DNA of 64,000 nucleotides from Watersipora subatra. Taxonomy: Eukaryota > Bryozoa > Gymnolaemata > Cheilostomatida > Watersiporidae. The stretch is taken from assembly GCF_963576615.1 (NCBI RefSeq), contig NC_088717.1, positions 13,708,108 through 13,772,107 on the forward strand. The letters are read 5' to 3'. Shown one piece after another: positions 1-59,400 of the stretch (its first letter is position 1; the number at the start of each line of letters is the position of its first letter). The notes beneath the pieces were generated by a model. The model was not told the origin of the DNA and made no database searches. It was given only the letters and a program-made list of their open reading frames with translations. Position numbers and translations under genes: made by a program.

Positions 1-156
1 AGTTGATTTTTACAGCATGAATATTCACCAGTTGCATTGCTATAAATTTCTTTTGCTAAATAGATTGTTAGCTTTTGCCTAGTCAAAAAATTCAGAAGAC
101 AATTTATGCAACAAGTGCGTTTAAAATAATTACATTCATTGTATGATTCATTGTAG

Positions 157-4142: not shown

Positions 4143-4148
4143 AATAAA
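4143..4148 (+). terminator. Possible SLC6 poly(A) signal
   Basis: AATAAA about 285 nt after the SLC6 stop codon. Position is plausible, but the motif is common in AT-rich DNA. Confidence 0.4.
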
Positions 4149-4711: not shown

Positions 4712-5169
4712 AGCACATCAATTACATAAGTACTTTTATTATATATTTCAGTACATCAGAGTCTTGGCTTTCGAATGAGTTTATATTAAATACACAAAGA
4801 ATAATAGAACTATGAGAAACAGGGTGTTAAAAGTATGTCTTGCAATAAAAAAAACAGTTGGTCGTGGTTCCTACAATGTGATGTCACAATTATCATTACC
4901 AAGATATTGAAGAGCCTGAGTTAGCTGAAATAGTACTTACCGGTATGTAATTACTTACCTGTAAGAATATGTAAGTACTTACCGGTATTTAATTACCTAC
5001 CTGTAAGTATATGTAAGTACTTACCGGTATGTAATTACTTACCTGTAAGTATATGTAAGTACTTACCGGTATGTAATTACTTACCTGTAAGTATATGTAA
5101 GTACTTACCGGTATGTAATACTTACCTGTAAGTATATGTAAGTACTTACCTGTATGTAATTGATATGCT
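4712..5169. mobile_element. TTAA-flanked element with inverted ends
   Basis: The left end AGCACATCAATTACATAAGT is matched inverted at the right end (ATGTAATTGATATGCT). TTAA stands on both sides (4708-4711 and 5170-5173), the target typical of piggyBac or Kolobok transposons. A second family member is at 61647-63013. The centre of this copy is replaced by a 42-bp satellite. No transposase is visible. Confidence 0.6.
4932..5160. repeat. 42-bp tandem repeat, about 5.5 copies
   Basis: The unit begins AGTACTTACCGGTATGTAAT and ends CTGTAAGTATATGTA. Each unit contains the palindrome GTAAGTACTTAC and several splice-donor-like GTAAGT words. One unit is slightly shortened. Confidence 0.95.
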
Positions 5170-5552
5170 TTAATAAACGATCACGAGTAACTACTAGGCT
5201 AAGCCTTTCTTAGTATTTAACTTTTTATTTGTTATTATTATGATTGCAGGTTACAAGCTATATACATTGTATGTATTTTTATTATTAATTAATAGTATCT
5301 TACACGTTTTTTTTTTGTTTAGAAGTTTAAAAAGCTATTTCAAAGTTCATTATCTATTTTTGTTATTTGTAATTTTAAAATGTGCCATTTCAATTTCAAA
5401 TGTGTTGTTGCACTCTTATTTCTGGTTTCTCTTAAAGGGGATAGATAAACCTAAAAAATACAAAAACAAAGTACCCTCTTGCGCTTCGCTCTATACGTTT
5501 GTACTAGTATTGAGAAGCATCGGCATTAGTTCATTAAAACCTCGAATACAAT

Positions 5553-5720
5553 AAGCTTCTGCTGCAACAGAAAGCTTTTTTATACAGAAACTTATATGTA
5601 GTTATTATTATTAGTAATTCATCATATTAATGATTTTGTTTTCTTAGTTCATATTATTTGTATCAGTATCAAATAACTTTTCATTGTAATAATTATAGCA
5701 AAACAAACTATCTAGCCATT
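5553..5720 (+). repeat. Interspersed repeat, copy 1
   Basis: Starts near AGCTTCTGCTGCAACAG and shares long stretches with 14165-14350, including TAGTTCATATTA and TTTTCATTGTAATNATAGCAAAAC. Family unknown. Confidence 0.65.
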
Positions 5721-8363: not shown

Positions 8364-22115
<13,752 letters not shown>

Positions 22116-22184: not shown

Positions 22185-22458
22185 TTACAGAATTCAATCG
22201 TAAAAAATAACCAAATGGAATTGCATTTTGGTGCTATCTAGGTCACGTCTGGATATGTTAGTACTTTATGAATGGTTCAGAGTACAGAGAAGCCAGAATG
22301 GTACTGCGTATCCTTTTTGCCTTGCTTGAAATTTTAGGACCCCTATAGATGATAAGCTGTTAGCATGCAGTAATCAATTGCTGTTCGAGCATAATTAGTA
22401 CTTTTTGTTTTATGATAAATATAATCTCTGTGGCTTATCAAACCTATCACTTTCCAAT

Positions 22459-25400: not shown

Positions 25401-25513
25401 TATTCATATTTGCAAATTCATCATATTCATATTTGCAAATTCATCATATTCATATTTGCAAATTCATCATATTCATATTTGCAAATTCATCATATTCATA
25501 TTTGCAAATTCAT
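22459..25513. repeat. 23-bp AT-rich satellite, about 130 copies
   Basis: Unit TCATCATATTCATATTTGCAAAT with point variants. Because 23 is not a multiple of 3, all three plus frames stay open, giving long frames of QIHHIHI/SSYSYL-type peptides; these are not genes. A variant block at about 22792-22920 recurs at 24047-24175, and TTTGCAAATGCATC units cluster at 23140-23960, showing higher-order duplication. One irregular short unit lies near 23258-23280. Confidence 0.98.
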
Positions 25514-25811
25514 CACTTTCCCGAAAAAAATCAAAAAAATTACTACAATAAAACACTTAAAAATTATATTACAATACCTTACAGATTTGCAAACAACAAG
25601 CATGCCTAATCTACTATCATCCGAGGCAACTGTTACAGTAGAAATATATGTTTAAAAAACCCTTATTTAGCATCACCCTTTCTTAAATCCAATGTTTTGA
25701 AAATACAATGATTTAAAGTTTCAATATAGCAGAATTGCTACTGTAGATGTTGTGACAAAGTTGTAGGTCTTCAAAAAATGTAAAGAATTTCTAGTATTGT
25801 TTATGATATAT

Positions 25812-31605: not shown

Positions 31606-32310
31606 ATAGATGTCTACAGTATGTTCACAAATGACAGATCTCTACAGTATGTTCACAAATGACAGATCTCTACAGTATGTTCACAAATGACAGATCTCTA
31701 CAGTATGTTCACAACTGACAGATCTCTACAGTATGGTCACAACTGACAGATCTCTACAGTATGGTCACAACTGACAGATCTCTACAGTATGTTCACAACT
31801 GACAGATCTCTGCAGTATGTTCACAACTGACAGATCTCTACAATATGTTCACAAATGACAGATCTCTACAGTATGTTCACAACTGACAGATCTCTACAGT
31901 ATGTTCACAACTGACAGATCTCTACAGTATGTTCACAACTGACAGATCTCTACAGAATGTTCACAACTTACAGATCTCTACAGTATGTTCACAAATGACA
32001 GATCTCTACAGTATGTTCACAACTGACAGATCTCTACAGTATGTTCACAACTGACAGATCTCTACAGTATGTTCACAACTGACAGATCTCTACAGTATGT
32101 TCACAACTGACAGATCTACAGAATGTTCACAACTGACAGATCTCTACAGTATGTTCACAACTGACAGATCTCTACAGTATGTTCCCGACTGACAGATCTC
32201 TACAGTATGTTCCCAACTGACAGATCTCTACAGTATGTTCACAACCGACAGATCTCTACAGTATGTTCACAACTGACAGATCTCTACAGTATGTTCACAA
32301 CTGACAGATC
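31606..32310. repeat. 28-bp satellite, about 25 copies
   Basis: Unit starts GACAGATCTCTACAGTATGT and ends TCACAACT. Each unit carries AGATCT. It begins about 130 bp beyond the likely kinase poly(A) site. Variation is low, suggesting recent amplification or homogenisation. Confidence 0.97.
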
Positions 32311-35900: not shown

Positions 35901-38900
35901 TGAGGAGATCTTTGGCATTAGGTCGCTGCAACAGCAAATGATAATATCAACATCAAAATCATTAGCAAAGGAGAAATAAAACTGGAAACCTTGTCCACTA
36001 ATTGCAGTTCAGGCTTATTTTCTCACAGTTGTCTGTGCATGTTGACCTCTCTAGGTGAGATGGTGCTGATTCTTAGCTGTTTATTTATTACCTGTAAAAT
36101 GAGCATGGCAGGAAAGTTTATCGAATAACCAAGGCTCAAGAATGGTTCACACTGTATCGTTGTATGGTGGCGTTAATCTCACACCGGTGATCGTCTGCAG
36201 TAACAATGTTCACACTATCACAAACCAACCCGCACTTACATCAGTGGAATAGGCCGCGTTTTCATTATACAAAGCGCTTGCGGAAATGATGAAATACTAG
36301 CCCTGCAGCAACTATTATGAAAGAAAATATATAACAAGCAATCCGCGAAGGGTAATCACCATCACCGAAGTGGTGCACATTGCACAGGCTGTCATGGATG
36401 TTTGGTGAACTATCAAGCAAGTTTGACAGCTGCAAACTTTCCCAACATATCCGTGTTGCCTCGACGATGCTATCGGTTCACGGCGCACATAGTTGATGAG
36501 TAATTGATGGGACGACAACACCAACATACTACAGTATAATGTGAACAAGCCCTCAGACAGCCAGTACCCTCAGCCCCCTCTCGTATCAACCTGTATAGTA
36601 TCATCGTTACACAAAGTGTCCAAGGCCTCCCGAGATCGAAGAAGAAGCTCATTTGAGCAGAACTTTAAGGTCTTTATATTCTAATATAAGTTAGAATAAT
36701 AACTTCTAAATTCTAATAAAAGTTAAATACTCTAATATAGTCTAACTTTATAAGGTCAACGCCTAAATAACTCCAAATTCATTGGAGCAATATGCCTTAA
36801 GAGACCTCTCTAAGCGTGGTTTCATTTATTGGACTGGAGTTGTTTTCTCATTGTGTCAAGCAAACATTTTTTCCATTTTAAAAGTAACCAATCGTTATTT
36901 GTTATGTTTGAAATCCTCTCAATAAAAACATGCTGTCTGCTTTTGCAAAGACAATATTTCAGACCTCTTCATTCCATAAAATTTCAACTACTTAATTCAT
37001 CAATTTATTTCTGTAAGAAACTAATTAACGCAAATTTATTTTATTTTCATAAAATAAATTTGTGTAGGAAACAATCCTGCTTTTAAATGAAAGCAAAATA
37101 AACAATCCGGTTCTAGCATAGCCAAAATGAGAAAGCAACATTTCTATGATAACCATAAACAAGTACATTGTAGTGAGCCTCTGATGTGTGGAACCTGCCC
37201 CCAGAAACATGTGCTTGCAATGACTCCAATTGATGAGGAGCTAACTGCAAGTGTCTCTTCAAGTAGGACTATTTGGACTCCGACCAGAGACTAATAACTA
37301 CATCCATAATACATACCTAAATTGATTTTAAAGATAATTTTCATGTAGTAGTAATTTTTTGAGCAATCGAGTGATTCTAAGCTCGGTGCTGTATTCATGG
37401 CAGTACCGCTGACGCTAGTACAAACCGATGATGACCAAGCATACTTTCACTTAGCTCACACACAACCACATATTACATATTTGTAGACATCTGCAGCCAC
37501 CATGGACCACTAGCATCGTGGATCCAGGTTTGAGGCCAATCGGATAGTGTACGCACAGGTGGTAGTCTGGAGTGTCACAAACGTGTTGTGTGAAGTTGGC
37601 ACAGCATGCAAGAATCTACTTGTTCTCTGCGCTTTACTGAGACACATGACGATCTCCAGCGGCGAACAAAACTGCCAGGGAACTGATATATATATATATA
37701 TATATTAGGGATAATAATCGTTTACGTCATTTTTCCACCCGATTGCGGCGAGGGAGAAAGTAATCTTTTCAAAACTGAGATTTTTATTATTCCAATCGAA
37801 TTTGAGAATTTATACCAATGTTGCACGTTGTATGGAAATTTTACATAATTTGGAGCAAAAACTGAATTTTATGTATTTATGAATTTAAGTTATAAGAGCA
37901 TCTCCTGTACTCATAAATAAAATCAGTTTTTTACCGAATATCGTGACAGGCGATTACCTACAGCCAATGAAAACCCTCCGATTCAGTGATTGCATAGCCT
38001 TGTGCACCCGAATTCAGAAAAAACTATTGTAACTCTTCTACAATTGTGTGTGGTACGCGATTGCTATCTGAACACTAAACACGAACCCATATGGGTGCCT
38101 TCCACGCATACCATCTACGTTTAGCGAATCTAAAAGCAGCCCTAATCGTAACCCTTTATCCAGGTCAAGACATGCAGTCAATGCTTTCAGATAGAGAGGG
38201 CAGAGATGAATGAAGACTAACGACTCGCTAGTAAAGGGTATGTTCTGACCTGTTACTAGCCTGCAGAGTACTCAGAGTGACATTGTCTGGCAGCATTCAC
38301 AGAGCGTATGACGCATACAAAAGGAATACATACACATCAATGTGTATGTATTCCTTACCAATACATATTCGTTATCAATACATACACATCAATGTAGCTG
38401 ACAGACATGCAGATAAATATCACTCACATCCTTAGCGTCTTTGTTGAGACAGAGCTCTACAAACTCCTTGAAGTGCTTGCTATAGGTACCACTGAGCTTA
38501 GGTGGGTCATTCTTGGGAATTAAAAAGAGTACCCTCATTGGATGCAGCTCTGAGTAAGGTGGCTCCCCCTTGGCCAACTCGATAGCTGTGATTCCTAATG
38601 ACCAAATGTCCGCCTGGAAGAGAAAAACGCACAAGCCATTCAGAAGAAACTTGGAGTAAAGCTTTTACACAACATCAACAATGTTGTATGGGTGCGAAAT
38701 TGTAACATTCTGGGTTGGCAGGTAATGAAAGTTTATTCAATGTCATGAAACTTGCATGATCAGCAACTCTTCTGACGCCATTGTTTTTCTCTGTGATCAG
38801 AGCAGATGCATCCCAAATCTTATAAGTACACTTGAATTGCACGATTAGTTGTGCTAGCTACTCCACTTTGCCACTTTCTTTAATTGTTTAACTGGAAACC

Positions 38901-41900
38901 TCTTTCAAGCTACATGCATTTGTTGCCACCAGCTAGGTCAGCCTGGTGGAGGCACTCTTCACACTAGACACACGCTCTTGACATATCAATGAGTAGGTGT
39001 TGAGTTATTAGCCGTCCATACACCTAATTTGAATGCGACTGACTAGAAATGAGGTGTATTTCCATGTGCTCGTGTCACCATGAGCATGATTAGTGTGATA
39101 ATACTGCCATGATTATATATGTCTGTATATCACAAGTTGTAGTTCTTATAGAAAGTTTATACCATAAGTACTTGTCCAATGCGTATGCTATTATTTGCAG
39201 AAATAGTAGCATATTAGCAAGTAATGAAGATCTATTGTTTTATATGAAGCCGCTAAATAGTTATTTGTTACAAGGAATGAGCCAAAGATGACGTTTGGGA
39301 GTTTGTATACTAGAATTTGTATGCTTTAAGAGATAAATAAATATTTAACATGAAATAACTCTTCAATAATAATAAATAAAACGGAAATTTTACCTACAGA
39401 CAGACAAAACTACATATAATATATATGTGTATATTATATATATTATATATGCATAATATATATATTATACATACATGTATATATAAAACACATAATATTC
39501 AGTGAGGGAAGATGACTCCACCATATCTACGAGTGATGAGAACAGCTCATGCTCCATTTTTTAACCGAAAGGAGAATCACAAAGCATCGAGAGCAGCATA
39601 CAAGCTATCGGAGTGTCAATGATGCTAGCTAGACCAGACTGCCATGGTGAGTCATTTACGACTATTTTTGATGAGAAAAAGTTGAAAAAGGAAAAGTTTC
39701 AAACAGGTTTGATGAGCCATCCAGGTGTAAATAATACACCAATAAAAATCAATGGCATTATCAAAAATTGCCAGATGGCGAATTGCTAAAGGCAATCAAT
39801 TCCACATAAGCAATCTTCAGACAACTAGAGATGAGACTGAACTGGATAACTAGACTCAATCATAGAGTGTGTTAATTTGAGGGCATCGCAGAGACAGTGA
39901 ATACTGTACAAATACTTTCAACTTTCCCTTCCAAGCATTCCACTATGAATGAAATTCAGCCTGGACTACCTACTTGCCTTTTTAGGCCATTGCTCAACAT
40001 CAGCAAACAACCATGTAAATGTGCCTTAATGTAGAAGTGCGAGCTCTGTGTTGAGAGACAGACAATCCCGGTGACAATTTCAAGCAACTTGCGTGCAATA
40101 AATAGCCCTGTTTCACTCAATTAGATGTATAAAACATTCTCTTTCTTAATTCCAACCTTATTAAAATCCAAAACTTAATAAAACTGACACCATTACAAAA
40201 GAATTCATAAATTAAATTTGCTTTTACAAAGAAAATGTAAAACCAAGTTGTATACACAGAATGTAAACGGACTCCCAAATGCTTATGGTCAAAAAGAGGG
40301 CTACCAAGTAATATAAACAGGGCAGATGTAAGACTATCATATAAGTGACTGTACATATGCTTGTGGACAGGTACAACATCCAGTAACCGACAGCATCCAT
40401 ACGTGAGCATAGCAGCATGAGAAAACAACGTACCTTGAAATCATATGCCGACTGTTTGATCACTTCTGGAGCCATCCAAAAAGGAGTCCCTACAAATGTT
40501 CGTCTCTTGGACATTGTGTCTGTCAGCTGTCCTGCGACGCCAAAGTCAGCAAGTTTGACATCTCCTTGCTCTGAGAGCAGCACATTGGCAGCTGCAACAT
40601 AGAGCAATCATTTTACAAAAAAGTAACTCTTAAATACTTTTGAGGATTCACTGGAAGGACAACATTGTTTCCTCTGAATAAATGGTTTTATTTAAAAAAC
40701 TACAAAGATATTTCATAGCAGCCATGAAGGACGACTCCAAAAGTAACTAGGGTGTCACTGTACGAGTCTACCGCTTCCTACACTGACGCTCTGACCAATC
40801 GTACTTGTCATTATAAATATAGACGCTAACCGAGATTACAGTTAGTGACTTGACAGTACTAGACATATGTTCTACCGCAAGTCACTGGAGAGCAAAAGGA
40901 TACAACTAAAGCCAGATAAGATATGCAATCTGTTTGGACAAGGCGCACAGGGTGCTCATGATAACGCATGAGTGCTAAGTAAATGCATAAACCTCTGTAA
41001 CTATAAGTGTAAGAGAAGGCTTGAAGATTAAAGGAAGAGATAAGCAAGAATGCAGCCTATTTCTGTTACACGCCCTTTTACATGGACGACTCCTAGACCA
41101 CGCTCAACTCATACATCGGCTAAAACTAGTGTGAGCAATATGCAAAAAGTGTACACAGTTTGTACACATGTTTGACACGACAGAAACATGTCCAGCTGCA
41201 ACGATGTCGACAGCTGAGTGAGATTTACCTACACAAATGTAACAAACAACAACATAATTTCCTCATCATGCTCAATGCTCAGGAAATAATTTTAGTAAGA
41301 TTTTAGACTGGCATGCTTTTTGCATGTTTGAACGGGCAATAAGTCAAGCTAACAAAAACGACTCTCTGCCTTTGAACCCGCTATTTCCATTCACCATCTA
41401 GTACGCAACTGTATGGACAACAATAGCGGCAACATAAAAACTGTGATTATTTGATAAACCTAGTCAAAGCGATCGTATTAACAATAGACCACAGAATGCG
41501 TGTTGTGCCAGTGAGTGATTTTGAGAAATGAACGAATGTTGGTTTTACTGACTGCTCCAGGATATAGGCAGGCAGCAGCTATGAGCCGTAAAAGTTGGAT
41601 CAAAACACAACAACGTTCACAAGACATAGAAATGACATCCATTCCAATGGTAGTGTTACGCTAAAGAGCAGACAATTTTAAAACGAATGAATATGTTTGA
41701 GAAAGCGTTGCTACTGGGTAAACAAATCACCATCATTACAAACGGAGACATGCAAATGACGTGCTTAAAAAGAGATGCCAAGGTTGTGGATTACTTCCCC
41801 TTAGCCCAGACTCCCCCCTACAATCTTCATACCTCCAAAGGCATGAACAACACTTTTGCCAACACTTCAGGTATTAACCCTTTCGTGGGCGAATTTTCAA

Positions 41901-44900
41901 AACTAAATCAGACTCCCATGGGCGAATTAATTTTCCAAAAAATCAATTTTTTCCAAAAGGTTCATACACTTTTCTGTGTGTTATTATGTGCATATCTCTA
42001 TGTTTAAAGGTGCATATGTATACATGTATATGTCCATAGGCATATATATATATATATTATAAACAAATAAAAATGTATAACATAAAATATATGCTTTTCA
42101 TAATAATTGTCTATTTACGAATGATATTTTCGAAAGCATTCTCTTTTACAAAGGCCCACATCACAGTCTTTGCACCATGTACTTATTCGTGTAACAAAGA
42201 GCTATCACAAAAATGTACTTCCTGGATTGACAGGCTCAAAAAACTTTTCAAAATACTCTACTGGTTGAGCATCTACTAGAGTAAATACTGGGCCTGTCAC
42301 TGCTATAAACTGCTGAATTGCAGGAGATTTATCTCTGTTTATGTTGGTTATATTCTTCCAGGCACTGGCATCACTCCTACTCACATCCTCATCATTACTG
42401 CTACCAGCCTTTTCATCACTGTCACTTCTAGATGTAAAGTCATTACAATCACAATTCAAACCTGATTCACTGTCATCTCTTGCTACTAAATCTAAAAGGT
42501 CACTGTCATCTCTGAATCTCTTAGTAATTTCGGTACTAGTACTTGCTTTATGAAAATAATCTCGGCAGGTTCTTTTAGAAGTCGCCATGACGGTAAACTA
42601 AAGTCAAACTCTCAAAAAATTCGGTAAATAAAAGCTAAAACCGAAGCAAGAAAAATAAAAGTTGATAAAATTATTTAGAACAATTTTCTAATTTTTTTCG
42701 AAAGTTTATTTATTAATGACTGCTAAAAACGATCGTTTTTTTTTTCAACCTTGAAGTCAATTTTTGAGGCTAACTGAAACTACTATATCGTAGCTTGCTA
42801 TTGGTGAAAAAAGTAAACAAAAAACGGCATTTAGCTAACCAGAAACGGCAATAATAAAATACGTTACCGAAACGACAAAAACGTCGCACTGCCCATTAGC
42901 AGCCGTATCGCAAAGCGACAAAAACGTCGCACTGCCCACGAAAGGGTTAAGAGAGAGGATCGTTTATGGCGGTTACTTGGTTCTGATTGATCATAAATAA
43001 AACAATACATGTCTCCAATATCAACATGTTCTGTAGGGGTGCCAACACAGCATCTAATTTTTTTGAGGTCAGAAGCTTCGGTAGAGAAAAGTCTCCACAA
43101 CAACTAGAGCTCAGAGGTTTACAACAGAACAGTCACGGTCATGCTCAATCTGATTCGGATAGGCTTAACCGATACTGACATTTCATCAGATTAACTTATT
43201 ATTAGCAAATCCATTATTCTTATTATTTTTTTTACAAACGACTGACTGTATGATTCACAATGCAAAAAGAAGACGCCACCGCAGCAGACATGAAATACGT
43301 GGAATGATGCAATTCCTATATTCAGTTTAAGCGTGGTTCCCATATCGGGTGCGAGATCTCAGTAATAATCTCGAGCATCAAAACACCTGCGGTACTAGAT
43401 GGTTTATATTCACATAGAGCTGCATCGCTGATTATTGCATAAAATGGCCGCTTGCCATGCCGTTTCGAAAGTGCTGACCTTCACCGGTACAGTGTATTTC
43501 GGGAAGGTTTTGCCAGTGGCTCCTTGCAAAAGTTGAAGAGCGCTTGTTCCCATTTCACCGCTGATAGCCCAACAATCCAGCCAACGGTACTTGTGGCGTA
43601 GATGGGAACCAAGCTTTAGACTTGTATGGCTATAACTTGTACGCTGCTACAATGGTTGGGACCAGCATACTTGTGAGGGGTCCAGTTCAGTTGTCACCCA
43701 ATTGCAATCAAATAAATGACATTATACAGACCCTAACCCTACATCCTGATACACACATGACGAACTACAGCTACACAGCTGTACTTTTTGACCCCTGCAT
43801 CATTGCCTATGCATTTTAGCCCTGACATGAAATTTGCCATACAGAGGATATAGGCATAGCAATTTGCCGTCACATTCCGCTCACCTTTGATGTCTCTGTG
43901 CAGCTTCTTTTCGGCATGAAGATACTCTAAGCCCTTTAAAATCTCCCGAAGTATGATGGCTATGAAAGTCTCTGAGAAAGGTCCTGGCTTCATAAGTTCA
44001 AGTGCTGAGCCACCACCCAGGTACTCCATTATAATCCATAGTTTTGTGCCCTGCAAATAGCAGCATCTGGTTGACAGACAGTAAAGAATGGGGCGTGCAA
44101 GAAGAGATTGATAAATGAATGTGTAGAAAAATAGTGCTAACGGGTGGTTAGATAAAATGAAGGAAAAGACTTTAGTTGAAAGAATATGACTGAAATCACA
44201 GACATCAAAGGCACTAAAAGCTGGCTGTGAAGGTAAGAATTGGAGAATTAGGTAAAAAGTCATGAGAGGTTAGGTCGACACCAGCAATGATTACAATAAG
44301 GCAAAACTAAACAATAGAAGAAGCGGTATGGAGAGGTTTGAAAAGATTAATGGAGGGACAAGAGATTGATTGAAGATGGAGAGCTAAAGATCGGCGATGT
44401 GATACATGCTTTTATTGCAAGGTGAAAATGCACTGCAGGTGTAAAAAGTGGAGTTGCGAAACACTAGTATATGTACTAGCTTGCAACAATTGCTATGCAA
44501 AGCAGGCTGGAGATGAAAAACCCCGAATAATAAAATTGGCCAATATATATTCATACATTCTACATGTTATTAATATTACAACAGAGGGAATATAAATTAC
44601 AAAACTTCTTAAACTGCGTTCTGAATTTTATTTTAAAACATTCTCATAGACAACATTGTGAGCTAACGTAATAAATTATACCATCTGAATATGCATCAAG
44701 AACTCCATATGTCACTAGTGTCAGCTGTACCCCTCAAGTACACTTCATCATTAATGCAGCTAGAGAAGAGAATGCTAAATCTACTTCTACGGTATTCGAG
44801 TATGCTTCGTCTTACAGAAGCTGAGACACGAGACGTCTACTAACTTGTCAAAACAACCACAAACTCTTCCTCGTTGTCATTTATCTTAAATCAATTTCAG

Positions 44901-47900
44901 ATATGCTTTCCTCCGTTTGTCCTTTATGCTGCTGCTCAAATGCTGCTGTTAGTGAATTTTAACGCTGTCTAGCTAACACTTTATTTGCATTGATAATGAA
45001 AAATTAGAAACAATTTGCTGTTCCACTATTTTAGTAGAGCGAAAATGAAGGTGTTTAGCTTGCGCCGCTTTGGTAATATTTAAACTAGCTTGATGAAAGT
45101 ATATTAACAGACAACTATTCAACTACAGTGGAACCTCGGTTTATGAATGCCTCGCAGTTCGAACGAATCGGAGTCCGAACAAAAAATTCGAGAAATTCTT
45201 GCTTCGTAGTTCGAACAAAAATCGGAGTTCGAACGCCGGTACGACGCTTGAGTGCGTACGTGAGGGTGGGATGCTGAGCGGCATACGGGTGTAGATCGCT
45301 CTCTCCGTGACCAACTGTTGTCGCATTGTCCGAGATTAAACAAATGTGTAGCAAATGGGCCGAGTTACAGAATTTCGTCGAACTCCACCACCCCGATAAA
45401 GCTGCAGCCGCCAGAGTCATCAATGACTTTAACGACACTATCATGAACCACTTCCGAAAAGTGCTAAAAAGAAGGCAGAAGCAAGTGTGATTGGATAGAT
45501 ATTTTAAGAGAAAAGAACATCCTGTAGCCGAGTAAAAAGTCCTATTCATAATTCTTTTCTTTATCCTTTTTTCTTATTTTTACACGTTCATGTTAGCGTA
45601 ATTTTTCGTATGGAAGATTACGACAACGCGAACGTGCGATTAGCCTGGGTTACATTTATGTTTATGTTATTTGTGTTTTTGCCATTTTGCTTAACATTTT
45701 CTGAGATATACATTGCTTTTTATGTGTTGGTCAGCATTTTAATGTGCAATTTCATGCATAAAATAATGTATAAAATACTGAAAAGGTAAACATTCAGGGT
45801 GTTGGAACGGATTAAAACTTATATATATTAATTCTAATGGGAAAACCTGTTTCGGATCTCAAACAACTCGGTTTTCGACCAACCTTCTGGAATGGATTGT
45901 GTTCGAGAACCGAGGCTCCACTGTAACACCAAACTTTGTGCAGACTTTCGCACGATTGCAATAGTGCATAATATTGCTATTGTTTATGGACAGCGGAGAA
46001 CAAAATGCATACATTACTTGCAAAACATATTTAGAAAATTCAAAATGATAACAATACATCAATAGTTATTTACTATTAACGATTTGCTGTCATGGTAACT
46101 ATTAGACTATCCTAAACCAAGTTTTCCAGGAGAAAAATTGAGAGCAATAATTTGTTACTCAAAACATTAAGCAAATCTACTAGGTATCTATTATGACAAT
46201 TGTCCATGTTTGTTATTCACCCGCGAACCTGGTAATGCTGACAGACGATTATGTATTCTTTCACAACAAAATTACTTATGACTGAAATACGATTTTCGGC
46301 ACCAGTTACTATTTTTACCGTCACACATCCTTTACAGACAGTTGAGAGAGAAATATGCAATACCTGTTTTTTTCAGTCGAAAGAATTAATTATTTTAATA
46401 CCTATTCAGAAAAAATAAAATCAGCCAATTTACAGTACCATTTCTAGTAGGAGTCTAATAGGAACCATGCTAATTCTGCAACTCTACTATGAATGCACTG
46501 CATTTGAGTTCTAAACAATTGTAAGACCTGCTTTTTGTACATGTCGGTAGTCCCGCATGACAGAAAGTAAGCATTTCCAGAGTTTGAAAGACAAAGACTC
46601 AACCAAAGATTGTGGCATAACTTATCTACTTATATTATAGTTGTCAGCCCTCCTAAATCATCCTTGAAAAAGCAACGTTATAATTAGCTCCCCAGCAGGT
46701 GAAATGAGAAAAGGCGCGACAAGCCTCCCTAAACTATAGGCTAAAGATTAGTATGTTGATGGAGGTCAAGGAAACGATTAGCACTCCTGTTCCTTTACGA
46801 GTGTGTTACACCTGTTACACTAATTATTATACACACTTATGTAGGTGAACACCCCTTCCATCATTGCAAGCATTACCAGGTGAGACTTTGCACTCAAGCT
46901 AACAAATAGCTTATGAGCAAACACTGAAGAGAACTTGGCAAACAGTTGAAGGGTGAAAATACAGCAAAGGGTTGTTGGGAAAATAAACTCGACTAATGAT
47001 CACCAGAACCTAGAAATCTTTTGACATGAAACTTAAATTCTGAGCAGATATCTGGCTTGATATACAAAGCAATTTTCAACATACTATCTTGGAAGTTTCT
47101 AGAAACATTGCAGTCCAAGGTGTTTTCCTTCACAATAGCTGGTACTACTGCGTTTGGAAACTAGTAAGTAGCGCTCCATACCAGTTTATAAAGTGTTAAA
47201 ATCATGGATCAAAGACAGACTGGAATGAGTGATGGTGGAGCCAAAAGTGAAGAAGATATGCTTTTTACAGAATAATAAAACCTATGAACAACATATCCTT
47301 TAAAAAGCCTTTGAAACTAAATGGTTGGGTTAAGGGACAAGCTGTACACCAACCCTGTAGGAATTATATCTCATTCTTAAAGGTTGACTTGCAACAAAAT
47401 TCACATTACAGTTATTTGGTATCAAAAGATTCACCATGTCTCAATCTGCTGTGTTGTAGGTGCAAAATACATGGAAATGTGATTAAAAGCTTTTAAAAGC
47501 TCAAAAATGAACAGTCAATCGCCGCCATCACAAAATCGCCGCCATCACAAAATCGCTGCCATCACAAAATCACCGCCATCACAAAACCGCCGTAGATTAG
47601 AATCTCTTTTCAAACCCTAGGACTAATATACTTCAGCACCTACAGCTATACTCTAGGACTAATATACTTCAGCACCTACTGCTATACTCTAGAATTAATA
47701 TACTTCAGTACCTACTGCATACTCTATGACTAATATACTTCAGTTTGAGGAACCCATATGGATAAGGACAATAAAAACTAGAGGAGCATATTACTGACAG
47801 GCCAATCCCTCAGGGCTACTACTTGACCCACCTTGAGATAAGAGCCATAGTATTTAGTGACATATGGACTGTCACATTGTGAGAGCACCATTATTTCCTG

Positions 47901-50900
47901 TTGTATATCTTCTATCTCATCCTCAGCCTCTTCTAAGTCTTTAAATATAACATCAAACACTTCAAGGAATAGCGTGTAGACCATTTTTTGACTAGCAAAT
48001 TCCATGGTATTATTACTTTGGTAAATCTGTTAGAACTTACACAGTTCCACTGACAAGTTGTTAATGACAAAATGGATGCACTAGCGTAAAAGGCTTGCAA
48101 AAGGAGGTAGCTTACTGCTTGCTATTTTTACACGAAAAGATGTAAAGCATATTTCTGTTGACTTTTCCCGGCTGTAGCATGACATACACTGTATGAGATT
48201 TATTAGTATATATAGCGACAATCTATGAATTATGAATAGTTTTCTGAATTCCTTGATACTCGCCAAGCACATCTTTATTTATAACACAAACTAGACCATT
48301 GACTCAATGTTAAGAGGACAACTCCAATCTAATATAAATATATCTATTTTCAATAAGTTTAAATTTAAAACATTTTGAGATTTATATAGCAAGACAATCA
48401 GTGAGATTATTTACAATGGTTCAATTAATTACTCCCTCATATATGTACAGTACTCAGAAGAAAGCCCAACAAAGAGAGTGCGCAAATTGTAGCTGACTCG
48501 ACCCATGGAACAAGGTTGATAATGGTAAGCAATATATGGTAACACCATTAACCCACTCAGGACTGTTCCCGAATACCTCGGGAAGAGTTGTGCTCTCCAG
48601 GGCCCATTCCCGAAGTACTCGGGTTAAACTTTGATTTGCTCTATTGCTTAGCTGTTTAGGTACATCGGTTTTATTAATTCACCAAACGAAGTTTAAGAGT
48701 CTGGGCATCATTTTGATACCAAATATGTGATTGGACAAGAAAGTTTTAACTAACAAATTATGTGATAGATATCAACTGTTTTGGAAATTTGATGATCGCC
48801 ATTTTGGAAAAGGTTTATCCGAACGATGGCAAAATTTTTAGATGAATTAGATGTGGTAATCAGCTCAGGGAAAGAAAATAGCAACAAAAGTAATGTTCAA
48901 GAAGAAAATGAGAATTTTCTGATGGAAGAAGGTAAGTTTTATGTGGCTATTTATAGAATTTTACCGAAAAAAAAAACGATAAAAAGCCAAAATTTTTCTT
49001 GTGAATTTCTAACAAACTTTATTCTAACAGTGTAAGATATGGATTTTTTTTCATGATACACATGATTATAACATTTTCAATCCAATAAAATTTAGATCTT
49101 TTTGCAGCATGAACTCATCACTCTATTACCCCATAATAAACAATAGTTTTATGATTTCCTTGTAGAACTACAAGATAATAAAAATTTCTTATTTCATTTA
49201 TATCCAATTGTTCAACCCACAATTAGTCAAGCATATAGTTCTCAACCTCAACATCTACTATAAACTAGCCCCAACCACTAGGCTCTAATATTGGTCGATA
49301 GGGGACACTTACCACAGTAATCATCTTCATGACTTTTTGTGTTTATATTTACAGTATCAAAAAATATTTGCAATTTGTATTACCAATTGTTAGCTGCAGT
49401 AGACTACTTATTTTCAATTTGTTATCAGGTATTTACCCTGAAAAGCTACTAAAGCACAATTTTTTTAGGCTGTATCATATTTGCTACATGAAGGTGAAGA
49501 CAGTCAAGGGCTTGTGAGTGATGATGCCGTTGATGATGAGCCTAGGGCTTCAACACCAACATCTGATGAATACTGCATCAACTAACTTATAATGGCAGCA
49601 AATATGCATGTGTAGTTGGCATCAAATAACTCTCACCGTGTCATAATTTTTTAATGAACTCACCCTTATTATACATGTATATATTGTTTCGTTTTCATGC
49701 ATTTTCATTTTTACTGTATTTTTTACAATATATTTTACTGCATTTTTACACCTATTTTTTTTGCTGGTAATTGATTGTCTGTTAGCTGGTAACTTGAGTA
49801 TTTTTTATGCATAATATATTCATAATAACCTCTGCAATGCATTTCAATATAAATTAACAAATTGTTTGATTATATAATTGATAAAACTGTCAGTGACGTA
49901 GTGTTGGTTAGAAGCTAGTAACACTTGTTCTATTGCTCGGAATTGAGAAATCTTTTTTTTTATTTGCTGCTGATAAAGTTTGCTATCAATCTAACATAGG
50001 TCCAACAATGTCAGTATCAAAAAACTGCTTGTGAGCTGCTACGAAACATGAAAAACAATTTTGATAAAATAAAAGTTCACAGAATTATTAGAAATTGTGG
50101 TCAGTAGAATTTGTAAAGGTGCACAAAAATTTATATCACATTGTAGCCTGGAATGTCTTTGTTAAGCTGCAAAAAACAAATCAAGATTATTTTGAAAAGA
50201 ACTCTAGTTATACTCAATTTTGTGTAGCTCTATTTTAATTGTAAGGCTAGTGAAAAATTAATTGGGCTGGGGGAGCAGTCAACCAATAACTAATTAGTCC
50301 TGAATGGGTTAAAACTCAAAGCCTAAATAAAGCAATACAAACGGTCTTTGATGCAAATAACATGTATCATCAACAGTTCTGTCTCATGATCGTAACAAGC
50401 AAAGCTATCATTTGTCTGAACAAATAACTGGCGTGTTGCCATTTCAAACTCTAAAAAAACATCTGTCAATACTTCAGACACATACCTATGATTTTTATTG
50501 CTACTGTCTGTTGAGTCTTTTTGTCTATTCCTTTAAATACCTCACCAAAGGAGCCTTTTCCAATTTTTTCCTGTCTTGTAAACCTCTCTTCCGGATCCAC
50601 CTGGCCCGTCTGCAATTATTGAGAAAGAATGAGAAAATGAAAGCTTATGTCCCACCTTGGCTAGCTATCTAGGACTAACAAGGTGAATTTCAAAAAATCT
50701 ATTACGTGTAACTGTATAAATGTTGCAGTGCCCAATACTAATGCTGTTCATCTAGCTATTGTATGCTTTGTAAGTACCATATTACAATATTTTGGTTTTG
50801 TACCAGCAAATGGTTATTTTTCATAAATGAATAATATATATATATATTATGCGTAACTAGTTATATGGCCTTGAGTGTGTACTCTGTTACAAACTTATGA

Positions 50901-52151: not shown

Positions 52152-54134
52152 TTTGCATTAATGTTAAGACATGCGGCATCTAGTAAGTTATACTTCTAAC
52201 TTGTTGCACAAACAGACCACCTGTGCACTAAAAGACTCCTACTTCAACAGAAACCTACAACAAATCACATATATCATAACAAATACTATGTGTTACTCTA
52301 AACATAATTGAGATGATCAAATAACCTATACTGACACTATGCTGATTCGAGTAACCTTACAACAGCATTTTAACCAACATCATTAACTGGTTTTAGTGAA
52401 TTCTAACCTGACGAGTATATCAGGTGATTTATTATTGGATCTTTCTCGATGATGTAAATGGAAAAAATGACAAAGGTCTAGGATGTGCGCTGTTTATTTC
52501 CATATTTGTATATTATTACAAATAAAACTATATGATAGCAAAATACTAACTTTCAAAATGTAAGCTTTTACATATCAGTATGCGATGTGTCCGTCGATGA
52601 GCCAGCTACGAACGATGTTATGGTGTATATTCAAGGTTAAGCCACCGAAACCGTAGCCTAACAAAACTTCAAGAAAGAAATTCAATAGATATAACTTGTA
52701 GTGCCGCTCCTATATGACTGCGCTCACACGTAATGACACCATTGACGAAATACTCGATAACCAGCTTTCATACACCAATTGCACTAACCTGCCAAAAAGG
52801 GCGAATGTGTTGTCGACGATTAACACAAAACTTCTTTAATGTCCTTACAGAATATCCTGCATGATATGATAGATCACGAAATCTTATTTACAGCTCAACG
52901 TTGCCATCAACCTTAGTTTACCACCAACCGATTATCCAACTGGTATCCTGTACGCTGATGTCAAGTCCTGTAGCTCGTTTTAATTGCTGATTAACTTTAC
53001 GCTAAACATGTACTGATGAATTCAATGGTTATCTGGCAGCTTAAGAGATATTCCCGGTCAAATTCTAGTTAGCGCACAAACTTCCTCGGAGTGGTCTCAG
53101 CTTAACCTGTATAACGATATTATCTTTAGAAGTTCAGTTGTTGCCTTGCCACACCATGAAGGGTGTGGCAAGCTATTGCGCAATAAAACATATAACAAGG
53201 TAACAAAGTATTGGTAAATAGAATTACTAAAATTTAAACCAAATTAAAATTTTTGATGTGTGCAGCAAAATTAAATATTTTACTTCAAATAATATATTTA
53301 TTGTATCCCTGCGCCACGACAGCGGCTGGCTGGCTTGCTTACTGCTGTGGTCAGGTATAATTGCAGTGGCTCAAAACCTGGTCAGTTTCTGGGTCGTTTT
53401 GTAGAGGTGGAGCTTAATCCGGAAATGCAAATGTTTGTCGGCACTAAGCGACGAGGTTTTAAGCAAGTGCCAATGTTTAGTCGGTTAGAAACTGAGTCTG
53501 TAATCTTTTTATTTTTTGTAACAAAATAAAGCATAAACATCGTTTTAGACAAATCTTTAATCAAAAATATGAGATCTTTCATCAAACTAGCATAACGTAT
53601 TCACACAGTTGTTTACCGTAGTTTTGTCGTGTTAAGACGAAATAGTAACATGCTCACGAAACAGAAAAAAATCTTCTCAGAAATACATCTTTAATTATTC
53701 TGTATTTGTTTATACAGTGTGTATGAAAAATATCTTACATACGTTGTAATATGATTGCACTTACATGTATGTAACGTGGTATTACATAAGTTATTGAATA
53801 TTTGTGATTATGTTCTAACCAAATAAAATGCACATTGAAACAATTGTCTACTTTGCTACCATTCTGAGAGCTAAAGAAGATTCTATTTCATTTTAGTGTA
53901 ACTATTTATGTTAGCGTATCATAAGACAAAGATTGTGAAAAGGCAACAGAAGACATTAGTCTATCGTATCTTTACTGCAAACACCGACTTCTCCAACAAC
54001 TAACTTTATTTAGATTTTGAACATGACCGCACTTTGTAGGTATTGATTTGTCAATTTGCTTATATATTTATTATTTATGTACAGCATTGTGTAACCAAAA
54101 AGTTTTCTTGATTTGTTGGGCAAAAAATATTTTC
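52152..54134. other. Region upstream of the kinase, with left inverted-repeat arm
   Basis: Holds the kinase 5' leader and promoter region (no clear TATA or CpG signal seen), then the left arm of the long inverted repeat (about 53306-54050). No exon was seen. Confidence 0.55.
53306..54050 (+). repeat. Long inverted repeat, left arm
   Basis: Pairs with 58690-59400 in opposite orientation. The outer block (GTCAGGTATAATTGCAGTGG, then AAAACCTGGTCAGTTTCTGG) is nearly identical. Further in, CTTAATCCGGAAAT, AATCTTCTCA, TAATTATTCTGTATT, AAATAAAATGCACATT, CCATTCTGAGAGC and GGCAACAGAAGACAT occur in the same order with roughly 20-25% divergence. Outer and inner limits are approximate. Confidence 0.85.
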
Positions 54135-54364
54135 TTACTGTTGGCATGATGATGTATTTTCTTGCTCCAATATAAATAATGCATGTGGCAATTGTTGTGC
54201 ATCATTGTTAGCAGCTTTCCCGTTACCTCCACAAGCACAATGTAGCCAGTTCTGGAAAATCAGAGGGCAGCACACAAAACCTTTAGCATGATGTATATCT
54301 ATTGGCATTGTTGACGTTATACAGCATACATTGTTTGAAAAGTCGATGTGCAATGACAAAATGT
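54135..54364 (-). CDS. Unknown gene, exon 6 (Cys-rich end, stop)
   Basis: Acceptor CATCACCAG. 76 codons including the stop; reads ILSLHIDFSNNVCCITST, then HHAKGFVCCPLIFQNWLHC and ACGGNGKAANNDAQQL. Another acceptor at 54378 keeps the same open frame but not the phase from exon 5. The clustered Cys/His could bind metal; this is a guess. Confidence 0.4.
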
Positions 54365-57300
54365 CTGGTGATGGACCACTGGAACAATCATAGGAAGTAG
54401 GTTGTTTCAGTTATTAGACGAATCTATCATGATAAATTGTTAAGTTTAATAATTTTACTTTATTTGATATAAAAAGAAATTGTTGCGCATAACTTAATTA
54501 CTACCACATCAGCACCAAAGCCATAAAAGGCCTTTAACAAGAACAAATGAGAACAGAATAACACAGTAGAAAAGGGCCACATATACTACATGTAGATATG
54601 TGAAAATGAGTGAATATAAGTCTGGGTTATTTAAAAAAAATCAGTGATGAAAGTCCTGAATGTTGTTTGTATGCAGGTATGTTTTAATTGGATCAATATA
54701 TTCACTCAAAATTGAGCACAGTACCTAGCTGAAACAGTTCAAGTTTTTGCATATAAAAGTATTCCTATCTAGAACAAGTTTGTTCTCTATGGCTGCAGAT
54801 GAACTGGCAATGAAGGGAGGGCACGCCAGATGCCGTCTGGCGTGCCCTCCCTTCATTGCCAGTTCACCCACAGCTATAGGGAACAAACTTGTTCTATGCC
54901 TATCTAGATATTGCATGTATTATAAAGCCTCAGGACTCAGGAAGCATTTTTCCTCTGTCATTTCTTACTCCCTGCAAACTCCTCTTGGAGATCCTTGATC
55001 TAGAATAAAGACAATCATAGCATGTGTATTTACATCCCCTTGAACTTGTAAAGTACTGTGAATGCAGTATTTAAGTGGCATTGTTTTGAGGTGATTTTTG
55101 ACTTTGACAGGAATATTATGTGTTAATTTAATGAAGTAAATTGGAAAGTTACATTGGACATTGTGATTAGCTGAAAGTTAATTTGGCGATCTGAAAGAAC
55201 CGGGCAAATCTGCTTTTGCTAGTTCCTGACTTTATTACTGTTTTTACAATAGTTTTATTTCACAATTATTTCCTGGCTTCATATATCTACTCCGATCCTA
55301 CACTGCTCAACCGACTTAGCCCATAGAGTTGACTTGTAGAAGACAACAACGACATTAGTCCAAGTACTCAGTCAACGAATCGGATGGTGTTGTGGCACCT
55401 TGTTATCAACTTCTCAAAGAGTTGATAACAACTCCAAAGATGCTCCCAAATCCCGATTAGAGATATGCAAATCACATCAAATCACCAATCATGAGATTGG
55501 CATCAAAGCACCATAAAAATGAATTGCCCAGCTTGTAAATTAAATCAAATAAAACCATCAATTACATAGTGGATGATGGTTTTAATTTCATTTTTTTTCA
55601 AAGCTGAGTTGTCACCCTTCTAAGTGATTTGATTTGGAGCAAAACGCATGCCAGCGATTTGATATGCTTTACAAATCTGAAATCAGAGATTTGGGAGCAT
55701 CGCTGCACAACTCTCTCCAATTCAGACACTGAGCACTTACACTAAAGTGACACGAAAGCATCATGCAACAGGGTTCTAATTTTAAAACTGAGTTACTGAA
55801 TATTACTCACCAGACTGTTAGGTATGAAAGTAACATCAGGTGTCTCAGTAACATCTATAATGCTGTCGTTTGTGGCGTTTTGTAGATGCTCCCCACATCT
55901 ATGGAAGCTCGCATAGCCTCTGCTCTTACTCCTACCCGTCCTGAGCAAGCACTGCGTTTCCTCCTTATCTTGAGCTATAAATCAGAATGCTCGAGGCATT
56001 GAACGTTTGGCTGGGTATGAACAAGCAACTTAACAAATATCGCAGTTGGCAGCAAATAATTTGTTTCTAAAACCTAATCCTGCATACACAAGGAGTTCTT
56101 CTGCATTATCCTACTATAACTTCATGTTTTTCTAGCTACTAATCTAGGGCTATAAATGGCTTGAAGATCTGCCTACCAATGAAATTCCACATTTAACCAT
56201 AATTAATATTGCACGATTTGCCTAAAATTTTATTGCTGGTTATGTGAGTGAGTACCTCCGTGTTACTATCAGATGTATTGTCTTGAGGATGCGGTCTCTT
56301 TGTTGGATTCTGTGACTAAAAATATAAACAATACGTAAATTATGTATATCGACACCATGTGACAACATATATGAATTTATGCACATGTATAGCATATTTA
56401 TATTTGTGGGCACAATCTAACTAAATTCAAATAGGCAAAAGAGTCCAAACAAAGGCCTTGTTGTCAGGGCTCCAAAATAAGCATTCATTTTATCTTACTT
56501 TTAATGATTGTTTTTGCATATTTTAGGTGTGAAATACTAAATGTAAAATAAAATATTACGTCCAAGTTTAACCAAAGGTGTGAACTGCGATATAATACTA
56601 TCTGGCGCATGTGTGAGGCCTCGGGATGAGAAATTCTCAAGAAAAATGAGACAGATTGCCGTAAACTTCACTGGCTATTGGGTCAAGGATATGGTATCTA
56701 AGCATTCCAATCAAGTCCTTGTTTCTTTGCAATTCTACCAAATTTCTATGAGAGTGTAGATAAATTAAAATAAGAGAAAATGTTTTTGAACGTTGATGTA
56801 CTGTGAGACCGAAAGCAAAGTATCGAATACAACTTAGGCATGTCGCAACCCTCACAGTAGTGTAGACTTAGATTTACTGCATTCTCTGATTTTAGCTTAC
56901 AAGAATATAAATGTGCACACATGCTTTTGTTACAAGATAGCTATTTCAGAAATAAGACAAATTAAAATCCATAAAAGTAATAAATATTATTTATCATCTC
57001 TATGTAAAATCCATACTATACTATCTGTGCATTTGCAAAGACATGGAAGGATAGCCCTGTCTAAATATATTGGACATACAATGACCGAGTTTTGCTGTCC
57101 AAAAACATCCTTTATAATAGGCCGAGTAAAATATTCTTGGTGTACCGGTAACTTACCCTCCGCTGTTCTTTGTACTTTTCCTTCTGGGTTTGCTGTCTTT
57201 TAGGGCCGGACATGCAGCCATACTCTTTTTCTTCGCCATACTCTTTTTCTTCGCCATACATACATAAATAGCCTTGACTGTCATGAATGACGTTCTTACC

Positions 57301-58173
57301 TCTCCAAATATCTTTACCTTGCTAAATTAGAGCAGATAAAATTTTAAAATTAAGAAACATGGTACAGATTTTTTAGATTCATTGGCTGAAGACGTTGTAG
57401 GTTTTTAGCCTTACTTGATTGGTAACACTCAATTGGGAACTAACTGCTGCATGTATATGATGCTTGATACATTTATTGCTTGCTTGATTGTAGTTATTAA
57501 TATATACAATGATTTTTAATGTCATTTAAATTGCATGCCATTGCTTGTACACTGAAGCCCATGTATATCTTCTAATCAAGGCTGCACTATAAGCTTGATT
57601 GTAATCCACTGCATGTCTGTATATACACGAATATCCACTTCGTCAAATTAAGCTTAAGAGTTGAGTGTCTATAGAGAGTAATCCTTTATTGCTGAGAGGT
57701 AGATGGTGTGTATCCAGTGTGAGTTGCTAGTGAACTGATGAAAATTGTGTCAACTCTGCTTCAAGTAGGGCCTGTGACGTCATAGATCACATGGTACAAA
57801 AACAAACCAAAAAGGGCTTCATAAAACTGCAGCATAAAAACATATAAGCTACTATTGACATGTACTTCTATTGCACAACAACCAAGCAGAGGACTACATT
57901 TTACAATCAAGGTTACACTTCACAATCAAGGTTACACTAAAATATCCGAGGTATAAAATGTTTATTTTCAACACAAGATCACAAATTAGGCAGTGGAGAA
58001 AAAGTGCATTAAGGATATGAGATTACCTTCAAAAAGTCTTTCATGCTTGTTGAATATGCCGTCCTCATGGTTTGTGTAAAACTTGTTGCCATATTCGATT
58101 TCATGGGCTTTGATGGCTTGCTCAGCCTCGTCTAACAATGAGGCAAGAAGAAGCGGCATAATGCTTAAATGCA
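54135..58173 (-). CDS. Provisional six-exon gene of unknown function inside the inverted repeat
   Basis: I do not recognise the product. Exons 58173-58027, 57317-57157, 56309-56256, 55963-55811, 54999-54969 and 54364-54135 join in phase; from ATG 58159 they give 762 nt, about 253 aa. The start may instead lie in an upstream exon, since an acceptor precedes 58173. Visible parts: acidic helix SLLDEAEQAIKAHEIEYGNK, then FYTNHEDGIFNKHERLFEGK; a tandem GEEKEY duplication; basic GPKRQQTQKEKYKEQRR; Ser/Thr-rich middle; Cys/His-rich end with FVCCPLIFQNWLHCACGG. Reading through the last donor gives a 180-aa form ending AGSKK. Minus-strand AATAAA follows the stop by about 65 nt (54067-54072). The gene fills the space between the inverted-repeat arms. 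Confidence 0.5.
54770..54896. mobile_element. Near-perfect foldback MITE with hAT-like flanks, 127 bp
   Basis: Arms of about 62 nt pair almost completely (TAGAACAAGTTTGTTC outer, AAGGGAGGGCACGCCAGA inner). Flanks TTCCTATC and TGCCTATC are an 8-bp duplication with one difference. Lies in the last intron of the unknown gene. High arm identity suggests recent insertion or gene conversion. Confidence 0.82.
54958..54999 (-). CDS. Unknown gene, exon 5 with alternative end
   Basis: Acceptor TTATTCTAG. Codes IKDLQEEFAG. A strong donor GTAAGA after 54969 links in phase to exon 6; if unused, the frame ends SKK-TGA at 54958. Confidence 0.4.
   Translation of the reverse strand: MKDLQEEFAGSKK
55435..55705. 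mobile_element. hAT-like MITE, 271 bp
   Basis: Ends CAAAGATGCTCCCAAATC and its counterpart CAGCGATGCTCCCAAATC (complement strand). Flanks AACAACTC / CACAACTC are an 8-bp duplication with one difference. Lies in intron 4 of the unknown gene. Confidence 0.8.
55811..55963 (-). CDS. Unknown gene, exon 4
   Basis: Acceptor GATAAG, donor GTGAGT. Codes EETQCLLRTGRSKSRGY, then FHRCGEHLQNATNDS and IIDVTETPDVTFIPNSL. The acceptor was chosen to keep phase with exon 3. Confidence 0.45.
56256..56309 (-). CDS. Unknown gene, exon 3
   Basis: 54-nt exon, acceptor TCACAG, weak donor GTACTC. Codes NPTKRPHPQDNTSDSNTE. Confidence 0.4.
57157..57317 (-). CDS. Unknown gene, exon 2
   Basis: Acceptor TAGCAAG, donor GTAAGT, 161 nt, ends phase 0. 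Reads GKDIWRGKNVIHDSQGYLCM, two GEEKEY units from an exact 18-bp tandem duplication, then GCMSGPKRQQTQ and KEKYKEQRR. Confidence 0.5.
58027..58173 (-). CDS. Unknown gene, exon 1
   Basis: Acceptor-like AATTGCAG precedes 58173; first ATG is at 58159 (MPLLLASLLDEAEQ). Donor GTAATC. Ends LFE plus a split Gly. Best-looking coding exon of this gene. Confidence 0.55.
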
Positions 58174-58689
58174 CTGCAATTAAAAAATATATTTGGTAGG
58201 CCCTCAGGCTCCTCGTAGAAGTTGACTGTCGTCAGCGATCATGTCATTCAGCTATCGAGGCTTCGATAACCTACCGACATGATTGCCGACTACAGGCACG
58301 GGAGGCCTGTAGGTAGGCCTATATAGAAGATGAAATGATGAATACAAAAAGTCAGTTATGAATACATGATGACCCACTGAGGTCTTGAAGCAATATGAAT
58401 ATGCAGTGCATTTCAATTAATTTTTTAAGACAAATTGCAAGCAGTAAGCGACTCTGACTACTGAGGACTACTGATCACAGGCAGACTGTCTAGTCCGAAA
58501 ATATAACTGCCCTGCATTGCAGAAGACTACAAAAACTTGCTTTACCTTGCCTCCTCTCCTACACTTTTTGTGAACCAAACAGATGAGATACAGCCTAGGC
58601 CTGGCGGTGCTACTGACAGCGCACCATTGTAGTAACAAGTTCAAATAAAATTTGAGATACACAATTAAATGGTTGTTTCTTAGGTAGCT

Positions 58690-59400
58690 ACATACTGTCG
58701 TTGTTTCAAAATGTGCTACAGTTGAGACTTGGTAGTAATATAAAGTTAGTTGTTAAAAAAGTGTGTGCTTGCAGCAAATACAGTAAAGATAAGAAACTGA
58801 TGTCTTCTGTTGCCTTCATTTTTACAATCAATGCCTAACGAGATGCTAATACTAATATTTACAGTGAAATAAAATAGAATCATTTTAGGCTCTCAGAATG
58901 GTAACAAAGTGGACAACCGTTTTAATGTGCATTTTATTTGTTCAGAACATAATCGTAACTTTTCAATATTTTATGTAATACTGCTTTACAAAAATGTATT
59001 CATATTAAAAAAATATATAACTATTTTTCAAATATAAACGAATACAGAATAATTAATGGTGTATTTTTGAGAAGATTTTTTCCGTTTTGTGAGCGTGTTA
59101 CCATTTATTCTTAACAAAAAAACTACGATAAACAACTATGTAAATACTCTATGTTATTTTGCTAAAAGAACTCATATTTGTAATTAAAAATTTGCTTGGA
59201 AAAGATGCTTCCGTGATATTTTGTTAAACAAAAAGATAACTACTCGATTTCTCAACAACTAAACGTTTGCAGTGGTTCGACTAACTTTAAAGCTTTTGTA
59301 TTTCCGGATTAAGCTCCACCCCTACAAAACGACCCAGAAACTGACCAGGTTTTGAGCCACTGCAATTATACCTGACCTACTGCTGTTCATGTACGCACTA
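58690..59400 (-). repeat. Long inverted repeat, right arm
   Basis: Inverted partner of 53306-54050. Colinear blocks run from the CAGGTATAATTGCAGTGG region (outer, about 59375) to AACAACTAACTTTAT (inner, about 58740). Confidence 0.85.

Follow-up and report, generated by a model that had tools for sequence, protein, structure and literature searches.

A 6,029-bp unit at positions 53349–59377 of the window (the whole 64,000-bp stretch of Watersipora subatra DNA analysed here) is very probably a non-autonomous, internally deleted member of an animal MULE (Mutator superfamily) family, presumably moved in trans. A first-pass annotation had proposed a host-derived or novel gene inside the unit, but what lies there is a MULE transposase gene reduced to its two ends, the catalytic middle having been deleted. 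A candidate ‘new gene’ is thus removed and replaced by a well-delimited animal MULE family, of which the deletion derivative, the long relatives and the deletion junction are all visible within one genome.

Termini and genomic copies

The unit is bounded by inverted arms of 661 bp (53349–54009, plus strand) and 638 bp (58740–59377, minus strand), long terminal inverted repeats (TIRs) of the kind found in MULE/Mutator elements, which aligned at 75.9% identity over 677 columns (blastn, E 5e-133). Their local alignment score of 794.5, against maxima of 256 in 200 shuffles and 248 among 53 other window segments, confirmed the pair of long inverted arms that the first-pass annotation had described. 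It had also suggested aligning the arms and looking for a target duplication; doing so moved its limits (53306–59400) inward to 53349 and 59377, both of them sharp. GGTCAGGTATAATTGCAGTGGC marks the abrupt onset of the well-aligned part at both element ends, the TIRs open with GGT, and TACTGCTGT, an exact 9-bp direct repeat, abuts the element on either side (53340–53348, adjoining the first aligned TIR base, and 59378–59386). By chance, an exact 9-mer would abut both ends with a probability of ~4 per million (4^−9), and the length lies within the 8–11 bp of MULE/Mutator target-site duplications. The abrupt shared termini and the exact repeat therefore identify the window unit as a 6,029-bp transposon insertion.

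The outer 88 bp are the best-conserved part of the arms. The window ends are identical at 84 of these 88 positions, while further in, agreement between the arms ranges from 52/65 to 74/85 positions per 88-base block, gaps ignored. Both ends together carry 9 changes in the outermost 88 bp against 28.5 expected (P 2e-5), a pattern that would be expected of putative binding sites under selection through successive moves. At 6,029 bp the element exceeds the size of a MITE (<~1 kb, non-coding), and the window copy was found to contain a single pair of long arms plus nested short palindromes rather than the internally repetitive inverted repeats of a foldback element. The palindromes are a short MITE-like repeat at 54770–54896, found in other copies too, and an imperfect one at 55439–55701, present as well in a diverged copy described below (L049).

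Elsewhere, the window holds two satellite arrays, one spanning 3 kb with a 23-bp unit (22451–25515) and one spanning 0.7 kb with a 28-bp unit (31608–32310), together with two other inverted repeat pairs, 4695–4897/62830–63030 (87%) and 14570–14721/47376–47527 (91%), which are probably short dispersed repeats. STK24/25/26-type kinase exons lie on the minus strand at 38389–48029 (one frame holds two stretches that match the solved STK25 structure; the others were recognized by eye), and exons resembling an SLC7-type amino-acid transporter, recognized by eye from the list of open reading frames, lie on the plus strand at 8328–22115. Rfam and tRNA searches of the window gave zero matches.

Many further copies are present in the host genome, which comprises 783.7 Mb in 239 contigs. 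Allowing up to 3 mismatches, the 30-base end sequence occurs 167 times in forward and 171 times in reverse orientation genome-wide, whereas the reversed control has no occurrence in either orientation; the end sequence was absent from the viral contigs searched. For the left arm, the window copy is one of at least 40 (best 40 of 450 candidates scored); the 39 others are 97–99% identical and start at query bases 35–44, base 44 being the element edge. At least 40 places carry the stretch just inside the right arm, those other than the window at 98–99% (best 40 of 197 candidates scored). When the first 100 listed termini, all exact, were paired, 37 pairs were obtained and 26 termini stayed unpaired; some of these may be solo or truncated, as only exact ends appear in the list. 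Eighteen pairs are spaced at 6,018–6,073 bp, 7 at 5.6–5.9 kb (the shortest of all being 5,641 bp) and 8 at 6.4–7.7 kb; the other four measure 11.3, 12.1, 13.7 and 24.6 kb, and the 24.6-kb pairing is probably accidental.

Twenty loci were fetched by arm or interior matches. Four (L032, L034, L045 and L047) are partial, with one or both ends missing; 16 carry both ends. An exact 9-bp duplication flanks 12 of the 16, and 5 of the 8 counted as independent insertions; one base of the duplication differs at L033, 5 of 9 match at L030, and the two flanks of L046 do not match. Nine of the two-ended copies (L036–L044, on contigs C3, C5, C9, C11, C15, C20, C108, C115 and C134) have the duplication CCTTCCAAT in common, with one change in L039, as well as their near flanks, and are for this reason a single insertion that has been multiplied with its surroundings inside a larger repeated unit. 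Further matches on these contigs and others, among the matches listed, are spaced ~0.1–0.9 Mb apart, often in alternating orientation; such arrays are perhaps pericentromeric or part of a large segmental duplication.

Full or partial copies are 95.6–99.0% like the window copy over aligned bases and form two main subfamilies (~99% identity within, ~96.5% between). Two others, L049 and L050, are 93–95% like it: L049 (7.2 kb) consists of the 6-kb element plus an insert of 1.1 kb, a six-frame scan of this copy found no transposase domain, and L050 is shorter by ~0.36 kb. A clear target duplication was looked for at both and not found. The first-pass annotation had offered a long-TIR transposon as one possibility and had proposed a genome search for further arm pairs, asking if the inner region travels with them: the interior is kept in all 16 fetched copies with both ends, which, with the 9-bp target duplications and the hundreds of termini, bears that possibility out.

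The long relative and its transposase gene

The terminus pair at C1:72429784–72441920 (L054; 12,137 bp) has its ends in common with the window element, an exact 9-bp duplication of its own, TAAACAGGA, and a transposase gene. Bases 1–1147, 2468–3680 and 3677–6029 of the window element match this 12.1-kb element at 95.5, 94.3 and 91.2%, respectively, and the last two matching blocks are separated in it by 7.4 kb that the 6-kb form is without. Both edges of the deletion have in common the 4-bp microhomology CTGT (element bases 3677–3680, window 57025–57028), which places the junction, where the ~7.4-kb transposase core is missing, in the intron after the second exon (E2). In a second core copy, L056, the element runs unbroken from base 1 through 3680 directly into the core at 92–94% identity, so that on this, the left, side of the junction the long form is ancestral and the 6-kb form a deletion of it; the right side is supported by one long copy. 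Between the window and 12.1-kb elements the left bases 1–1147 are 95.5% and the right block 91.2% identical, whereas the left arm differs from the right at a fifth to a quarter of positions. Each arm is thus better conserved between copies than the two arms are mutually, so their divergence predates the spread of the family.

The 12.1-kb copy may itself be defective, because element bases 1148–2467 (the end of exon E4, and E5) are absent from it; they are kept in L056, the sole other long core copy, in which the SWIM exon has 2 stops. A complete, unbroken autonomous copy was not demonstrated among the long copies analysed. The 11.3-kb and 13.7-kb spans were rejected as long forms, the parts read being a match to the 6-kb element beside non-matching DNA, which in the 13.7-kb span contains retroelement integrase domains (four of six frames scanned). 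Inside the 12.1-kb element, a diverged (80%) copy of the element end (L051:4223–4312), perhaps a nested relative, stands beside a 110-bp palindrome.

The 12.1-kb copy holds a minus-strand exon series that opens with counterparts of the window exons E1 and E2 and continues into the core. Concatenated by eye (758 aa, exact joins presumed), these exons matched ALS2CR8 (4.3e-23), the ZSWIM1-3 RNaseH-like domain (PF21056, 3.1e-17), MULE (PF10551, 1.3e-9) and SWIM (4.3e-6), all above the Pfam cut-off; single frames of long copies already match ZSWIM1-3 RNaseH-like, ALS2CR8 and SWIM (minus frames only for L054 and L055). As read from these joined exons, the gene encodes a MULE-type DDE transposase whose N-terminal domain is of the ALS2CR8 type and which also has a catalytic domain of the RNaseH-like/MULE kind and a SWIM finger; what we take to be its catalytic residues were recognized by eye. 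PDB searches with the transposase core and with the peptide deduced from the window gave nothing useful.

The window copy has no catalytic domain of its own: the 7.4-kb core is absent, and no Pfam match was found in the six frames of the element or in the deduced peptide. The first-pass annotation had drawn a six-exon minus-strand gene here (58173–54135), and its exons fared differently. E1 (58028–58159, beginning MPLLLASLLDEAEQ) and E2 (approximately 57157–57317) have transposase counterparts in the 12.1-kb element and stand as first and second exons of the transposase. E2 ends within the ALS2CR8 domain, and the Pfam-matching stretch (65–240) starts inside it, which may explain the null Pfam result for E2 alone and for the window frames. 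Three further minus-strand exons are plausible as the C-terminal part of the transposase: E3 (56256–56315), which has an open frame and splice signals, E4 (55811–55974), of uncertain frame, and E5 (54961–54999), probably the last coding exon, ending in the IKDLQEEFAGSKK stop. The sixth exon, a 91-aa frame on the same strand (54410–54138), fell away: among 14 copies compared (L047 left out) it is whole in 5, stopped early in 1 (L031) and frameshifted in 8, and because it is lost in 9 of the 14 we read it as non-coding and probably 3′ untranslated.

The protein of the SWIM exon had 42 matches in the genome (all 63 first-look candidates scored). Only one is complete and unbroken for the family of the window element and one is 91% identical with 2 stops; two lie side by side on C9 (73–76%, with stops), four are fragments (73, 72, 40 and 40 aa; 81–96%), and the other 34, at no more than 39% identity, belong to other MULE-type genes. 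Three MULE-type SWIM exons occur within ~52 kb at C1:72401984–72453702, that of the 12.1-kb element and two that are 39% and 28% identical.

Selection on the exons and alternative readings

Tree and selection counts drew on 15 sequences, namely 12 of the 20 fetched loci together with the window copy, L049 and L050, with L037 representing the duplicated cluster and L036 and L038–L044 left out; synonymous change in the 6-kb copies was subjected to 18 tests in all. In E1–E5, 3 of 14 changes on internal branches were synonymous versus 4.2 expected, and 32 of 93 on terminal branches versus 25.4 expected (P 0.07), with 3 stops. Internal changes were sparser in E1–E5 than outside the exons (14 versus 23.0 expected, P 0.03), terminal changes were denser (93 versus 69.1 expected), and the terminal changes in E5 were all synonymous (3 of 3, P 0.014). 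The 91-aa last frame gave 6 of 9 synonymous changes on internal (P 0.02) and 13 of 29 on terminal branches (P 0.006), two results among the 18 tests. We found no clear purifying selection in the remnant exons. Between the two long copies, the SWIM exon has 25 synonymous and 24 non-synonymous changes where 14.9 synonymous were expected (P 0.0008), which points to purifying selection on the transposase exon, unlike the remnant exons.

Truncated transposases act as repressors or helpers in some families, and the shortened gene might likewise still yield a small protein, made of the N-terminal half-domain and C-terminal tail. We consider this unlikely. E1, E2 and E3 are open in most copies compared and the 6-kb form far outnumbers the core, as such a protein would lead one to see, and the sparse internal changes and wholly synonymous E5 changes lean the same way; however, the synonymous counts across E1–E5, the 3 stops and the excess of terminal changes inside the exons go against it, and the internal sparseness may date from the era when the gene was whole.

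A second alternative, that the TIRs mobilized a captured host gene of unknown family in the manner of a Pack-MULE, would account for the finding that long TIRs enclose a multi-exon gene lacking any significant Pfam match, but it is very improbable. E1 and E2 have counterparts as 5′ transposase exons in the 12.1-kb relative, element bases 1–3680 adjoin the transposase core directly in L056, E1–E2 and these 3,680 bases on the left are part of the family’s own transposase-bearing form, and clear purifying selection on the exons is lacking; we rejected host-gene capture on the recurrence of E1 and E2 in the transposase gene. The remaining alternative, a unique gene between two independent copies of one repeat, which the first-pass annotation had also entertained and with which arms only ~76% identical to each other would agree, retains almost no probability, since the entire unit occurs in independent copies at many places, several of them flanked by matching 9-bp duplications; full or partial copies show 95.6–99.0% likeness to the window copy, and a left arm 97–99% identical stands at the 39 best-scoring other places.

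We therefore return to the internally deleted MULE, for which the following course of events can be proposed. The ancestor would have been an element of ~12–13 kb with TIRs of ~640–660 bp and a multi-exon minus-strand transposase gene (ALS2CR8-type, RNaseH-like/MULE and SWIM domains). Deletion at the 4-bp microhomology removed the catalytic middle and left both TIRs in place, so that the transposase of rarer full-length copies could recognize the conserved outer ~88 bp and move the 6-kb form in trans. Each move would leave a 9-bp target duplication, and the 6-kb form would have multiplied to become the common one.

ALS2CR8 domains and comparison with known systems

The ALS2CR8 profile had 41 matches in the Watersipora genome, 40 of them above the Pfam cut-off (all 147 first-look candidates scored), and none in any of 14 control genomes. 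Five of the 41 have a SWIM exon of the transposase type downstream on the same strand, 2.5–5.3 kb away, where chance would give ~0.04 pairs within 10 kb on either strand; one of the five is the 12.1-kb family’s own copy and one involves the below-cut-off match. The other 36 have no SWIM exon nearby. In W. subatra, ALS2CR8 domains occur in MULE-type proteins. At C11:27046578–27052405, three stop-free ALS2CR8 matches lie in order on one strand with no SWIM match nearby, possibly a host CARF-type gene.

Human CARF (ALS2CR8) and ZSWIM1/3 are the proteins on which the transposase’s domains are modelled, as the Pfam model names state, and beyond the names we presume a relation; CARF and ZSWIM1/3 are host genes, whereas the transposase sits in a mobile element. 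It is possible, although we lean slightly towards doubt, that the DNA-binding domain of CARF, a vertebrate neuronal transcription factor, descended from an animal lineage of MULE transposases, more exactly from their N-terminal domain; the lineage combines ALS2CR8, RNaseH/MULE and SWIM domains, and the 6-kb/12.1-kb family would be a mobile member of it. If true, this link makes the origin of a host transcription factor open to testing. We found no ALS2CR8–transposase link in the open-access literature, where absence is not absence in print. Judged by title only, open-access articles on ALS2CR8 with SWIM or transposable elements dealt with cancer topics and those on CARF and transposons were off topic; among the matches listed, none on ZSWIM and transposases concerned a transposase origin by title, and in two looser searches the articles listed left ALS2CR8 unmentioned in one and ZSWIM in the other.

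The family resembles Mutator/MULE elements in general, which are described as having long TIRs, 8–11-bp target duplications and a MULE catalytic domain, and among which named clades include Phantom, Ghost and Spectre (PMC6446971). Arthropod MULEs, as surveyed, encode a DDE transposase, have TIRs of 13–1193 bp, most with a conserved G/C at the first bases, and measure 1.4–10.0 kb, mostly 2.5–5.0 kb (PMC13359780). The Watersipora family likewise has a DDE transposase, TIRs within that range and a G at the TIR start (GGT), but its full form, at ~12–13 kb, exceeds the surveyed lengths, and the main text of the survey makes no mention of SWIM, FLYWCH or introns (PMC13359780). Close in organization to the elements described here is Tm1, a Mutator/Foldback family of root-knot nematodes described as having composite TIRs, 9-bp target duplications, non-autonomous members and a longer member, with common TIRs, whose MULE transposase gene contains introns (PMC3169594); the Watersipora family is likewise an animal MULE with composite TIRs, 9-bp duplications, non-autonomous members and an intron-containing transposase in a longer, TIR-sharing member. 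The two differ in that Tm1-A is 2.6 kb long and encodes a 496-aa FLYWCH-MULE transposase, whereas the Watersipora full form of ~12–13 kb has an ALS2CR8-type N-terminus and a SWIM finger, and in that Tm1 is called low copy, whereas the Watersipora derivative is a simple internal deletion present in many copies (PMC3169594).
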